DNA from: Cognatundibacterium griseum
GTDB taxonomy: Bacteria > Pseudomonadota > Gammaproteobacteria > Burkholderiales > Burkholderiaceae_D
Reading direction: 5' to 3'
Assembly (NCBI RefSeq): GCF_014284195.1
Contig: NZ_JACOGC010000003.1
Location: forward strand, 248,001 to 312,000
DNA: 64,000 nucleotides
The notes under the pieces were generated by a model. The model was given only the letters and a program-made list of their open reading frames with translations. It was not told the DNA's origin and ran no database searches. This document shows positions 45,556 to 50,245 of this stretch, one piece after another; the first letter of the stretch is position 1; each line of letters opens with the position of its first letter. Made by a program: the position numbers and the translations under genes.

Positions 45556-46593
45556 TCAGGGGAGGACGGGTACGTGCATCAAGCCGGTCGTTTCCGGCAG
45601 GCCAAACATCAGATTCATACACTGCACAGCCTGTCCTGATGCGCCTTTCACCAGATTATCCTGCACCACCAGCACGATCACGGTATTACCGTTATTTGGA
45701 CGGTGCAGGGCAATACGCAGCATATTTGAACCACGGGTCGAGCGCGTTTCAGGGTGACTGCCAAATGGCATGACGTCAACGAATGGTTCATTCCGGTAAG
45801 CCTGCTCAAACAATGCCTGCAGTTGCTCATTGCTGACATCCGCCGTCAGGCGGGCATACAGCGTGGAATGCATACCACGGATCATCGGAACCAGATGCGG
45901 CGTGAACAACAAGCCGACAGGCTGATCGCTCATCCGCTGCAACTGTTCAATGGTTTCCGGTGTATGACGATGCCCGGAAACACCATAGGCTTTGAAAGAA
46001 TCACTGGTTTCCGAGAACAAAATACCGATTTCTGCCTTGCGTCCGGCTCCGGAGACACCTGATTTGCAATCCGCAATCAGGCTACCGGCATCAATCACTT
46101 TCGCCTGAAGCAAAGGTGCGAATCCCAATTGCATGGTCGTCGGATAACATCCCGGATTGCCAATCACACGGGCAGACCGGATAGCGTCGCGGTTGAGCTC
46201 AGGCAAACCATACACCGCTTCTGCCAGTACATCTTTACAAGTATGCGGAATACCGTACCACTTCTCAAACTGGGCGACATCCTTCATGCGGAAGTCTGCC
46301 GCCAGATCAATGACCTTCACTCCGGCAGCGAGCAATTCCTGCGCCTGCGCCATCGCCACGCCATGCGGCGTTGCAAAAAACACGACATCACACTGCGTCA
46401 GATTTGCTTTATCCGGCGAAGAAAACGCGATCTGCACGCGTCCGCGCAAAGATGGGTACATGTCCGCAACCGGCAAACCATCTTCTTTGCGGGATGTAAT
46501 CGCCGTTAATTGCGCATCGGGATGGGTCGCCAGAATACGCAACAGCTCCACGCCTGTATAACCTGTGCCGCCAACAATGCCAACTTTAATCAT
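45556..46593 (-). CDS. argC: N-acetyl-gamma-glutamyl-phosphate reductase
   Basis: This 345-aa enzyme of arginine synthesis has the Rossmann motif [14 protein letters not shown] at the N-terminus, the catalytic cysteine in [12 protein letters not shown] near residue 149 and the HRHTPEI-type active-site histidine (SGHRHTPET). It is transcribed with, or after, rpsI, from which it is separated by a terminator. Confidence 0.97.
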
Positions 46594-46686
46594 TTACTTT
46601 CCTTGCAAGAAATTTTTACGCTATTCTAACAGCAGACTTCTTCAACTGAACGATTCAGATAAAACTCGTTACACGGTAGCAGGAAA

Positions 46687-46717
46687 GAAAAAAGCCGCCT
46701 GAACAGGCGGCTTTTTT
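46687..46717 (-). terminator. terminator of rplM-rpsI
   Basis: AAGCCGCCTG and CAGGCGGCTT form a near loopless stem flanked by an A-run and a run of six T, placed between rpsI and argC. It can act on both strands. Confidence 0.92.
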
Positions 46718-46734
46718 GCTCCAGCAATAAAATA

Positions 46735-47127
46735 TTAACGCTTGGAGAATTGCTTTGCGCGACGTGCTTTACGCAGACCCACTTTTTTACGTTCAACTTC
46801 ACGTGCATCACGAGTAACGAAGCCAGCTTTGGACAATTCAGATTTCAAAGTTGCATCGTAGTCGATCAGGGCGCGAGTGATACCGTGACGAACTGCACCG
46901 GATTGGCCGGATTCGCCGCCGCCGTGAACGTTCACCATAATGTCGAATGTTTCGAGATTATTAGTCAGTTCCAGAGGTTGACGGATCACCATCAGGCCAG
47001 TTTCACGAGAAAAATATTCGCTTGCTGGTTTGCCGTTGACAACGATCTTGCCGCTGCCAGCTTTCAGGAATACACGAGCAACTGCGCTCTTGCGACGGCC
47101 AGTACCGTAGTTGTAATTACCGATCAT
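46735..47127 (-). CDS. rpsI: 30S ribosomal protein S9
   Basis: The 130-aa protein opens with [12 protein letters not shown] and closes with the conserved basic tail [12 protein letters not shown] that reaches the P-site tRNA. It follows rplM by nine bases, as in nearly all bacteria. Confidence 0.98.
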
Positions 47128-47136
47128 GGCTAATCC

Positions 47137-47565
47137 TTAGATGTCGAGTACTTGTGGTTGCTGTGCAGAATGCGGATGCGTTGCATCAGCATATACTTTC
47201 AGCTTCTTGATCATTGCGTAGCCGAGTGGGCCTTTTGGCAACATACCTTTTACCGCTTTTTCCAGCGCACGGCCTGGGAAACGCTCTTGCATTTTCTGGA
47301 AATTGGTTTCATAGATACCGCCTGGGTAACCAGTGTGACGGTAGTATGTTTTGTTCAGGGACTTGGTGCCAGTCACGCGCAGTTTGCCTGCGTTGACGAC
47401 GATAATGAAATCGCCTGTGTCTACGTGCGGTGTGAATTCTGGTTTATGCTTGCCGCGTAAACGGAGTGCCACTTCGCTGGCAACACGTCCGAGTACTTTA
47501 TCTGTCGCGTCAATCACGAACCAGTCGCGCTGAACCTCATGGCCCTTAGCGGAAAAGGTTTTCAT
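47137..47565 (-). CDS. rplM: 50S ribosomal protein L13
   Basis: The 142-aa protein has the L13 signature in [20 protein letters not shown] and [16 protein letters not shown]. It is the first gene of the rplM-rpsI unit. The promoter at 47671-47700 gives a leader of about 100 nt. In E. coli L13 represses its own operon; the leader here is long enough, but I cannot identify the site. Confidence 0.98.
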
Positions 47566-47670
47566 GTTGAATCCTAAAAAGTTAAATACGCCCTTGGTTA
47601 CGGTGGTTCTGCCAGTATTTCAGCAGACTCTCCCTTTTCATATCTCGTTCGGGCAAATCGAGAATCGAAA

Positions 47671-47700
47671 ATTATAAAGCCTTTCAAAGACTTAAGGCAA
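47671..47700 (-). promoter_or_regulatory. sigma70-type promoter of rplM-rpsI
   Basis: On the minus strand TTGCCT (47695-47700) and TATAAT (47671-47676) are separated by 18 bp. Transcription would start near 47664. Confidence 0.75.
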
Positions 47701-47738
47701 GAAATGTTTAAAAATTAGGCAGTTTTTTTGTTTAAGGC

Positions 47739-47850
47739 AAAAAAATACCCGAAGACCAGGCTTCGGGCTGAATCCACCAAAGGAGGAGGTGGAGGAGACA
47801 ATTGCGTGGTAGTCAACAGTAATCTGGAAGAAAACAATTAACTAACCGAT
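47739..47850 (-). ncRNA. small RNA with an anti-Shine-Dalgarno-like hairpin loop, about 112 nt
   Basis: The unit is complete on the minus strand. A promoter lies at 47857-47885. A hairpin follows with stem UCCACC / GGUGGA (47788-47793 and 47773-47778) and loop UCCUCCUUU, preceded by a further UGUCUCC. It ends in an intrinsic terminator, CCCGAAG / CUUCGGG (47748-47767), followed by UAUUUUUUU (T-run 47739-47745). The stretch ACCUCCUCCUUU resembles the 3' tail of 16S rRNA (ACCUCCUUU). It contains no plausible reading frame. It lies between rplM (same strand, 180 bp downstream, with its own promoter) and osmC (divergent). CU-rich loops of this type occur in base-pairing sRNAs that target ribosome binding sites. 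I cannot assign it to a named family. Confidence 0.75.
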
Positions 47851-47856
47851 GGGTCA

Positions 47857-47885
47857 ATAATAGGATAGGAAATTGTGCAGTGCAA
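47857..47885 (-). promoter_or_regulatory. sigma70-type promoter of the small RNA
   Basis: On the minus strand TTGCAC (47880-47885), exactly 17 bp, then TATTAT (47857-47862). The predicted start is near 47850. Confidence 0.75.
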
Positions 47886-47978
47886 GATAATTCGATCACA
47901 TTCACAGGAGGACTCCCTCTAATTTCAGATACAGTAAAATCCAGTCCTGATATCAATTAACGTCGAAATGAGGATCAC

Positions 47979-48434
47979 ATGGAAGCAACTGTACGCTGGA
48001 CAGGTTTATCGGGCATGTCATTTCTGGCCGAAACCGGTTCCGGTCATGCTGTACTGATGGACGGCGCACCCGACGGGGGTGGCCGCAATCTGGCGCCACG
48101 GCCAATGGAAATGGTCTTACTGGGAACGGGCGGCTGCACTGCGTATGATGTGGTACTGATCCTGCGCAAAAGCAAACAGGATGTCCGCGGCTGCGATGTT
48201 CGCCTGCAGGCAGAAAGGGCCGAGGCGGAACCCAAGGTATTCACACAGATACATTTTCATTTCACTGTCCGTGGGCGCAATCTGAAACCTAATCTGGTTG
48301 AACGGGCAATCAAGCTATCGCATGAGAAATATTGCTCTGCGTCCATCATGCTCGAAAAAACCGCCACGATCACACATAGCTACGAGATTATTGATGACCT
48401 GAGCCTGCCATCCGAGCACGAAGCAGCAGAATAA
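47979..48434 (+). CDS. OsmC family protein (YhfA-like)
   Basis: The 151-aa protein has the two family cysteines, in LGTGGCTAYDV (about residue 50) and in HEKYCSASIML (about 116). OsmC/Ohr proteins reduce organic hydroperoxides. This one lacks the typical Ohr N-terminal region and looks closer to the YhfA branch, whose substrate is unsettled. GAGGA precedes the ATG by a good distance. It is divergent from the small RNA. Confidence 0.9.
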   Translation: MEATVRWTGLSGMSFLAETGSGHAVLMDGAPDGGGRNLAPRPMEMVLLGTGGCTAYDVVLILRKSKQDVRGCDVRLQAERAEAEPKVFTQIHFHFTVRGRNLKPNLVERAIKLSHEKYCSASIMLEKTATITHSYEIIDDLSLPSEHEAAE

Positions 48435-48518
48435 GCGAAGCAACTCACGACAGCAGGTCAGAAGCGGAGCAGTGATTGCCAAAGATCACTGCTCCGGTAT
48501 AAGCATTGACGCAACCTT

Positions 48519-49283
48519 CTATAATGAGTCCGGCTTGCCGAAAATGTCTCTGAAACTGGGATAAAACGAGCAGTACCGGATCGTGGTCAATAGTGCAAGC
48601 ACCGGCATCATGAGCAGGATCACAAAAACCGTATTATCAGTCATCGCGATGAGTATTTCCACCAGCATGGCTGGCAGTAAGCCGGAAATGACGAACCAGG
48701 CGGCGGCATAGACCAGGAATGCGCGCCCTGCACGCTTAACCGAAAAAAAGCTGTAAAACAATGCTTTTCCAACAGACATGCGATGCCACATGATCAATGG
48801 TCCCGCAAACCAGAACGCCATCAGCGCCGGAAGAAAACTGAGAGCAGCAACCAGCATGCCGAGCAACAAACGTCCTTGCGGGACATCTTTGGGGTCAAGC
48901 GGCTTCTGACTCGATATGAGCTGATATAAGGCACCGTCATCAACCAGTTGGGAAATCAGGGTTGCCAGAGAGATCGCCAGTAAATACAGGCATCCCAGCC
49001 CTAATAAGCGCGGTAGCGCAGGTGACCGGAATCCCGCCAGCAACACGCCAGGATGAACCTTTACGCCCTGCTCAATCAAAAAACTGGCATGCATGAAGCT
49101 CATTGCAAATACGGGAATCAGCAATAGCGGCATAAAATGCCCCAGCAAGGGCAGCAGGCTGATTGCCATGTTGAGGAACATGTAGGCAAAAAACAGCGTC
49201 AGCATTTCCGCAGGCTGGCGGCGAAACAACTGAAACCCTTGTTTTACCCAGGACCATCCGGCGGATGGATGAATCTGACTCAT
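48519..49283 (-). CDS. BPSS1780 family membrane protein
   Basis: The 254-aa protein has six or so membrane helices, opening with the family pattern [18 protein letters not shown] and then a hydrophobic pair with [14 protein letters not shown]. The family is widespread in Burkholderiales and has no established function. I start at 49283, where ATGA overlaps the thrB stop; the longer frame would need a TTG. Confidence 0.85.
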
Positions 49284-50245
49284 ACGTCGCAAGTCAAAGG
49301 AGGCACCGGGAATGATTCCCGTAAACGCAAAATCCGCTCAAAATGAGCAGGATCATGCGGCGTCAGCATTTCCGCATCCCGGGGCTGATAATAATCATAC
49401 AGACGAGACAGCCAGAAGCGCAGTGCGGCAGCCCGCAGCATCGGTTTCCATGCCACCGATTCGTCATCGGTAAAAGGCCTGACTTCGTGATAGGCCTTCA
49501 GCAGCGCACGAACCCGCTCAACATCCAGCTCGCCAGTGGCAACATCAATACACCAGTCATTCACGGTCACCGCCACATCAAAAATCCAGGTGTCGCAACC
49601 CGCAAAATAAAAATCGAAAAATCCGGTCAGGCGATCACCCTCAAACATGACGTTATTCCGGAACAGATCCGCATGGATCGGGCCTCTCGGTAATGCACGG
49701 TAAATCGCGGTACTGTCAAAAGCATCCTGAAAATGCACTTCGGCACACAACAGATGTTTCAGTTCATCGGACAAAAATGGCATGACCTTCGGTGTCGTTT
49801 CATGCCACCAGTCAAGAGAACGCAGATTGGCCTGATACATCGGAAAATCCTGTCCGGCCAGATGCATTTTAGCGAGCATGGCACCAACCTCAGCGCAGTG
49901 CAAAGGTGCCGGTGCCATTTGCGAACATCCTTCCAGTTTGCTGACGATCGCCGCTGGCTTCCCATGCAAAGACACCACCAGCTCGCCATGAGCATTCGGC
50001 ACCGGAGCCGGCACCAGTATGCCGCGGTCAGCCAGGTGACGCATTAATTTGAGATAAAACGGCAGTTGTTCAAAATTCAGATTTTCAAATATGGTGAGCA
50101 CATACTCACCAGACTCGGTGGTCAGAAAAAAATTACTGTTCTCAATTCCTGAAGTAATGCCTTTAATTGCCAGTGCCTTCCCAAGTGGAAACTGCTCCAT
50201 CCAGGAACTGAGGTCATCCAGTGTAACCGAGGTAAAAACTGCCAT
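49280..50245 (-). CDS. thrB: homoserine kinase, choline/aminoglycoside kinase-like type
   Basis: This 321-aa enzyme phosphorylates homoserine in threonine synthesis. It is the APH/choline-kinase-fold ThrB of beta- and alphaproteobacteria, not the GHMP type of enterics: the Brenner-like motif is [14 protein letters not shown] near residue 194, followed by FFDFYFAG, which holds the metal-binding Asp. The N-terminus [15 protein letters not shown] is typical. It lies between a DUF2782-like gene and the BPSS1780-type gene, both same-strand. Confidence 0.93.

Follow-up and report, generated by a model that had tools for sequence, protein, structure and literature searches.

The closest described relatives of the RNA gene analysed here are the double-hairpin small RNAs collected in Rfam family RF02278 (Betaproteobacteria toxic sRNA). 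Four members, Hsnc059, Hsnc063, Hsnc086 and Hsnc107, are known from Herbaspirillum seropedicae, a species of the same family as Undibacterium. These four come from a set picked by prediction and RNA-seq (PMC7011215). In B. cenocepacia, the family comprises ncS27, of 92 nt, and ncS03, ncS05 and ncS62, of 57–67 nt (PMC5688073 Table 1); experiments on NcS27 are reported to have revealed effects on growth and carbon use (PMC5688073, PMC10987360), including effects on phenylalanine and tyrosine catabolism and on carbohydrate transport (PMC10987360). For S17 (CT_433) of Bordetella pertussis, flanked by a glycosyltransferase gene and coq7, experiments are reported to show processing, dependence on Hfq and direct repression, a sigma-54 activator being among the directly repressed genes (PMC11722255). 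According to the same source, a 27-nt block is identical in eight species, and bdhR1 was counted as a homolog with two mismatches (PMC11722255). The Neisseria RNAs NmsRA/NmsRB (RF02877; NgncR_162/163), reported to directly repress TCA-cycle enzymes (PMC5362039), would work alike through two anti-Shine-Dalgarno (anti-SD) stretches and likewise occur as tandem sibling copies.

The sRNA gene between osmC and rplM

We analysed a stretch of 64 kb (hereafter, the window). A cmscan of positions 46500–49500 matched 47800–47739 of the minus strand to RF02278 along the entire model (1–64 of 64, not truncated) at 62.6 bits, the gathering score being 50, and this was the sole gathering-level Rfam hit in the window. 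The initial annotation had proposed such a covariance-model (Infernal/Rfam) search, and had taken the gene for an undescribed element; with a full-length family member over the gathering score and published relatives at hand, the latter view is wrong. Judged by its sequence, the sRNA gene belongs to a family with described members in related bacteria. It carries the hallmarks of RF02278—two hairpins, the second of which is an intrinsic terminator, and an unpaired UGUCUCC at the 5′ end. In the same cmscan, RF02877 (NmsRb; 28.7 bits vs gathering 52) and RF02837 (anti-hemB; 25.2 bits vs 49.5) stayed below their gathering scores, which sets the window RNA apart from NmsRA/NmsRB.

As with ncS03, ncS05, ncS27 and ncS62, the match is full-length, with two hairpins, CU-rich unpaired stretches, a terminator and several copies per genome; the window RNA differs in having a longer 5′ part with a hairpin of its own, giving a predicted 112 nt as against the 92 nt of ncS27. 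This genome has another two copies above the cut-off, which stand in tandem (C10:271947–272012 and 272162–272222), and the pair (L065:3948–4223) sits between an M20-peptidase-domain gene and genes with ureidoglycolate-lyase/allantoicase domains. RF02278 copies clustered in twos to fours recur in the genus, the C10 pair being one that adjoins purine-degradation-domain genes. A plasmid collection searched with 47600–48000 returned zero matches.

Coordinates of the sRNA gene, its parts and its neighbours in the window
Feature	Position	Strand	Basis
−35 box TTGCAC	47880..47885	minus	sequence; TTGC[AG]C in 17/19 canonical orthologs; TTGCAT in Bordetella genomosp. 2
−10 box TATTAT, 17 bp from −35	47857..47862	minus	sequence; CTATTATTGAC in 17/19 canonical orthologs
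Predicted primary transcript, 112 nt	47739..47850	minus	predicted from promoter and terminator
5′ hairpin of the primary transcript (+4 to +43)	47808..47847	minus	single-sequence folds
RF02278 core; expected processed form, 62 nt	47739..47800	minus	cmscan; processing predicted
Site 1, unpaired UGUCUCC, running on into the UCC of the stem	47794..47800	minus	MFE fold
Stem 1, 5′ arm UCCACC	47788..47793	minus	fold; alignment
Loop UCCUCCUUU (Site 2), anti-SD-like	47779..47787	minus	sequence; fold
Stem 1, 3′ arm GGUGGA	47773..47778	minus	fold; alignment
Terminator hairpin GCCCGAAG-CCUGGU-CUUCGGGU	47747..47768	minus	terminator scan; covariation
Terminator tail AUUUUUUU	47739..47746	minus	sequence; terminator scan
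rplM (L13), downstream neighbour	47137..47565	minus	PF00572/TIGR01066
Promoter-like site of rplM's own	47700–47671	minus	promoter scan
OsmC-family gene, divergent neighbour	47979..48434	plus	PF02566, NF008009

In its anatomy, the gene is largely as first described. The promoter, with its 17-bp spacer, stands exactly where it had been placed; the 6-bp stem presents its loop as claimed; UGUCUCC is there beside it, unpaired, on the 5′ side; and a consensus terminator scan recovered the terminator at 47768–47739 of the minus strand. The consensus promoter scan did not pick up the sRNA promoter, because TTGCAC agrees with TTGACA at three of six positions only. With a likely +1 at 47850, an RNA of 112 nt would extend to 47739, the length that had been estimated, and, in keeping with the claim of a transcript that carries no reading frame, zero complete ORFs of at least 20 aa lie inside 47850–47739, which takes a protein-coding reading out of consideration; a 40-aa TTG frame begins in this interval and ends past the terminator. 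The divergent neighbour belongs to the OsmC family, as had been said, and its place next to the sRNA gene is conserved. The picture of an independent sRNA gene with CU-rich unpaired parts complementary to ribosome-binding sites was likewise right. The list of parts was accurate as far as it went, and had overlooked the 5′ hairpin.

For the 112-nt RNA, the predicted fold has an energy of −34.1 kcal/mol (z −4.33; 0/200 shuffles as good), and CCTCCTCCTTT occurs once in the window, with 0.01 occurrences expected. The 5′ hairpin was present in 17/17 orthologs folded singly (at least five of positions 3–12 pairing downstream); it rests on these single-sequence folds, since RNAalifold on the aligned 5′ part gave no consensus structure (0.0 kcal/mol). 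Site 1 was unpaired in 16/17 canonical orthologs folded, own copy included. The 5′ end of the 62-nt core probably matches that of S17S, described as beginning with T/U and carrying the 27-nt block from position 2 (PMC11722255), and the terminator tail is a likely Hfq contact.

Two structures in the surroundings deserve mention. Upstream of the sRNA promoter, the minus-strand TTAGAGGGAGTCCTCC (47907–47922) forms a GAGG/CCTC inverted repeat that is conserved, in full or in part, in G013, G001, G012, G023 and G003, and through which a regulator might act on the sRNA or osmC. A strong GC-rich hairpin at 46685–46720, between rpsI and argC, has an A-run and a T-run on its two sides and attracts numerous Rfam matches below gathering on either strand; it is likely a two-way terminator.

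Conservation of the locus and relation to S17

RF02278 was found at E ≤ 1e-3 in 49/60 genomes (own included) and over the cut-off in 33/60, as against 0/14 controls. We read 49 osmC–rplM intervals, 11 genomes being left out in which one of the two genes was absent or incomplete or the two lay far apart, and a double-hairpin sRNA lay in 35 of the 49: 19 canonical copies, eight of a variant and two of a third form (G014, G016) in the genus, and six in other families. Thirty-three of the intervals read were from the genus, so that the canonical copy stands between osmC and rplM in 19/33. By motif, 14/49 intervals held no sRNA, including those of the genus genomes G006, G007, G028 and G033. The promoter, CTATTATTGAC included, is kept in 17/19 canonical orthologs. 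In ten of these 17, TCGGTTAGTTA comes directly after CTATTATTGAC; from there to the core, the sequence is variable and has indels.

Covariation was assessed on 22 distinct rows (16 from the genus and six from other families), which showed pairing in 98.1% of cells and a score that 0/500 shuffles reached. Seven of the eight terminator pairs have changes on both sides; stem 1 is paired in 100% of cells, with one-sided changes only. The covariation signal thus sits in the terminator. Alignment of the rplM–osmC interval, put forward earlier as a check on the loop and on compensatory changes in its stem, bore out the conservation of promoter, core and stem pairing, but stem 1 changes are one-sided and a CCUCCUU loop is rare.

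The latter emerged from motif counts over 106 distinct copies, 31 at the rplM locus and 75 elsewhere. UCUCCUC at the 5′ side was intact in 29/31 and 70/75 of these, respectively; CCUCCUU lay inside the predicted loop in 6/31 and 1/75, the commonest loop at the rplM locus being UACUCCUUU (7/31 distinct copies). Because UCUCCUC is near-universal while CCUCCUU in the loop is rare, the emphasis that the initial annotation placed on the loop was misplaced; conservation is highest at the unpaired 5′ site. In the variant lineage, the rplM-locus copy has stem 1 replaced by GUCAC/GUGAC, still paired, with UCUCCUCC free and a short loop that lacks CCUCCUU; it has neither UGU nor an anti-SD loop. Eight genus genomes carry this variant copy (L018, L024, L025, L032, L038, L042, L043 and L045). 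The variant genomes G002, G009, G010 and G017 have a further copy in which UGUCUCC is intact.

A scan of named genomes with the core, in which one additional loop base was tolerated, gave at least 122 matches on at least 120 stretches. Among the matches listed, 92 shared the extra C of Bordetella genomosp. 2, while 29 had the form of the window and one had an extra T. Within 1.6 kb, again among the matches listed, a divergent osmC was present in 98, a same-strand rplM in 63 and a same-strand coq7 in 57; 13 of those listed had all three, in the order coq7, osmC, sRNA, rplM, which links the window locus to the coq7-flanked S17 locus. Nine of the matches listed had none of osmC, rplM or coq7, seven of them within 1.5 kb of a stretch end. 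The closest locus among those listed was that of Undibacterium oligocarboniphilum EM 1 (rplM 100%, osmC 99%), which makes Undibacterium the most likely genus for the window. One record, L200, titled as a Klebsiella pneumoniae MAG contig, shows the coq7-osmC-sRNA-rplM order seen in betaproteobacteria and is probably mislabelled.

S17 itself was compared through Bordetella genomosp. 2, in which the order is osmC, coq7, sRNA, in agreement with the S17 setting of PMC11722255. There, the promoter aligns with that of the window and shares its pattern, and the core has one extra C. Taken together, neighbourhood, promoter and core make the window RNA a likely S17 ortholog within the RF02278 double-hairpin family, to judge from these comparisons. 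The neighbourhood (among the matches listed), which overlaps in osmC, coq7 and rplM, and the promoter (in the alignment) are shared; the 27-nt block is not exact, one loop C being missing relative to Bordetella genomosp. 2, the sequence compared. S17L is given as 190 nt and lies beside coq7 (PMC11722255), whereas the window RNA is predicted at 112 nt and has rplM downstream. The higher S17 level in Bvg+ mode is a Bordetella trait. A literature search combining rplM, OsmC, sRNA and Betaproteobacteria, mostly among freely accessible papers, returned no account of the locus. S17 and the window RNA are hereby placed at one conserved neighbourhood: coq7, osmC, sRNA, rplM.

Ribosome-site motifs and candidate targets

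Site 1 is complementary to AGGAGACA. We counted AGGAGACA-N(2–9)-ATG against the same-composition controls AGGAGCAA and AGGAGAAC. The counts covered 37 genomes of the order, the own genome among them, and a further 79 of the phylum (78 from outside the order plus G078); grouping by RF02278 applies to the 37 of the order only. The own genome had 29 AGGAGACA matches, with 16 and 14 for the controls. The pooled ratio to the control mean was 1.66 in the 23 genomes whose family match exceeds the cut-off (21/23 above 1), 0.80 both in the eight with weaker matches and in the six with none (3/14 above 1), and 0.70 in the 78 genomes outside the order (16/78 above 1, 4/78 above 1.5). With kinship ignored, the difference within the order had a Mann-Whitney p of 3e-6. 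Two genomes over the cut-off had no excess (G021, 0.82; G048, 0.97) and three had hardly any (G014, G016 and G044; 1.04–1.09); ratios in the variant genomes were 0.75 (G002), 0.74 (G009), 0.93 (G010) and 1.08 (G017). At least one counted AGGAGACA match (G038:C15:242286) lies on the antisense strand of an sRNA copy.

The 29 matches of the own genome correspond to 28 sites, of which 26 were judged and two, at contig ends, left out. Frames of at least 60 aa were opened by 24/26 AGGAGACA sites vs 8/14 and 11/14 control sites. Genes for catabolism, transport, PHA synthase or sigma-54 activators made up 18/24 of those behind AGGAGACA vs 6/19 behind controls (p = 0.005, uncorrected), with gene-class labels assigned after seeing the hits and drawn mostly from NCBIfam for the test set and from Pfam for the controls. 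Among the 18 are HPPD, urocanate hydratase, two thiolases, two acyl-CoA dehydrogenases, three solute-binding proteins and two MFS-type transporters; many test proteins fell under curated cut-offs because they were cut at a stretch end. The catabolic and transport theme agrees with what is described for S17 and NcS27. None of the own genome's AGGAGACA-ATG sites lies inside the 64-kb window.

As a target site, the exact 10-mer GGAGGAGACA was too rare to serve, three of its six places in the genome being the sRNA genes themselves; with up to two mismatches it occurred 34 times in the window vs 39 expected, which is not above chance. Pairing with almost any strong ribosome-binding site, as originally proposed, has the CU-rich complementarity on its side but is doubtful in its breadth: since AGGAGACA is over-represented relative to controls of the same composition, a preferred subset is indicated rather than nearly all strong sites.

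A candidate mechanism, rival readings and implications

The reading that we favour, and hold to be very probably correct, is that the gene encodes an S17-like RF02278 sRNA that would act with Hfq to repress AGGAGACA-type ribosome-binding sites, those of catabolic and transport genes in particular; the papers that we count in its support are PMC11722255, PMC5688073, PMC10987360 and PMC12235514. A sigma-70-type promoter would drive the 112-nt RNA, which an RNase E-like cut near 47800 may convert into a stable 62-nt form starting with UGUCUCC. With Hfq—the hfq gene is present in the genome—Site 1 at the 5′ end, with the loop (Site 2) assisting, would then pair with AGGAGACA-type sites, block translation and lower the expression of catabolic, transport and related genes. 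We infer transcription, the cut near 47800, Hfq binding and repression at ribosome sites as likely steps. Counting against this reading are the weak −35 element, the one-sided changes in stem 1, the four genus intervals without the sRNA by motif and the genomes over the cut-off that show little or no AGGAGACA excess.

A general translation brake, in which a mimic of the 16S tail would engage the majority of strong ribosome-binding sites by pairing and hold back growth overall, the loop being its main part, was the view of the initial annotation and fits the family's 'toxic' name. The loop of the window copy does hold CCUCCUUU, relatives are reported to inhibit E. coli when cloned (Kimelman 2012 via PMC4603805, PMC7011215), and overexpressed ncS27 is reported to slow growth (PMC5688073). 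However, the scarcity of CCUCCUU in the loop (6/31 and 1/75 copies), the preference for AGGAGACA over SD controls of the same composition and the report that 92 genes, not all, went up in the absence of S17 (PMC11722255) make this account quite improbable. Still further from credible, to the point of being nearly discounted, is a leader or attenuator of rplM-rpsI in place of an sRNA: the element does share the strand of rplM and lies some 170 bases upstream of it, but we reject this reading because a complete terminator and a separate promoter-like site intervene and because family copies occur far from rplM (at C10 here; beside coq7 in Bordetella genomosp. 2).

For the AGGAGACA excess alone, and compatibly with the favoured S17-like repressor, a lineage-wide ribosome-site preference that was not selected for pairing, and that Site 1 merely follows, is a serious contender, if somewhat short of an even chance. 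The genomes are related, and four of the five below-cut-off genus genomes tested share the variant copy (G002, G009, G010 and G017; the fifth is G008) while retaining another copy with intact UGUCUCC. The strongest excess, 103 AGGAGACA-ATG matches vs 12 and 47 for the controls, was seen in G078, a genome of the same order that lies outside the set searched for RF02278 and was excluded from the pooled counts. Against a mere lineage preference, the excess follows the family score (Spearman 0.74, 37 genomes of the order, kinship ignored) and, in the own genome, falls mostly on catabolic and transport genes. We entertain more tentatively, as a rather unlikely proposition, that the RNA and the ribosome sites co-evolve, such that full-strength RF02278 goes with AGGAGACA as a class mark on catabolic and transport genes, the mark being weak or absent where the rplM-locus copy lacks UGU and the anti-SD loop. 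This is made less likely by the variant genomes, because they keep another copy with intact Site 1.

What had been supposed to be an undescribed element thus joins a known, partly characterised family, and the unpaired 5′ site takes the place of the loop as the focus. Systems of this kind are known; the link from the family to a ribosome-site variant may be new. If the excess survives phylogenetic correction, the targets of the family would be predictable from sequence across Burkholderiales, and if co-evolution holds true, a genome-wide regulon could be read from one ribosome-site variant.
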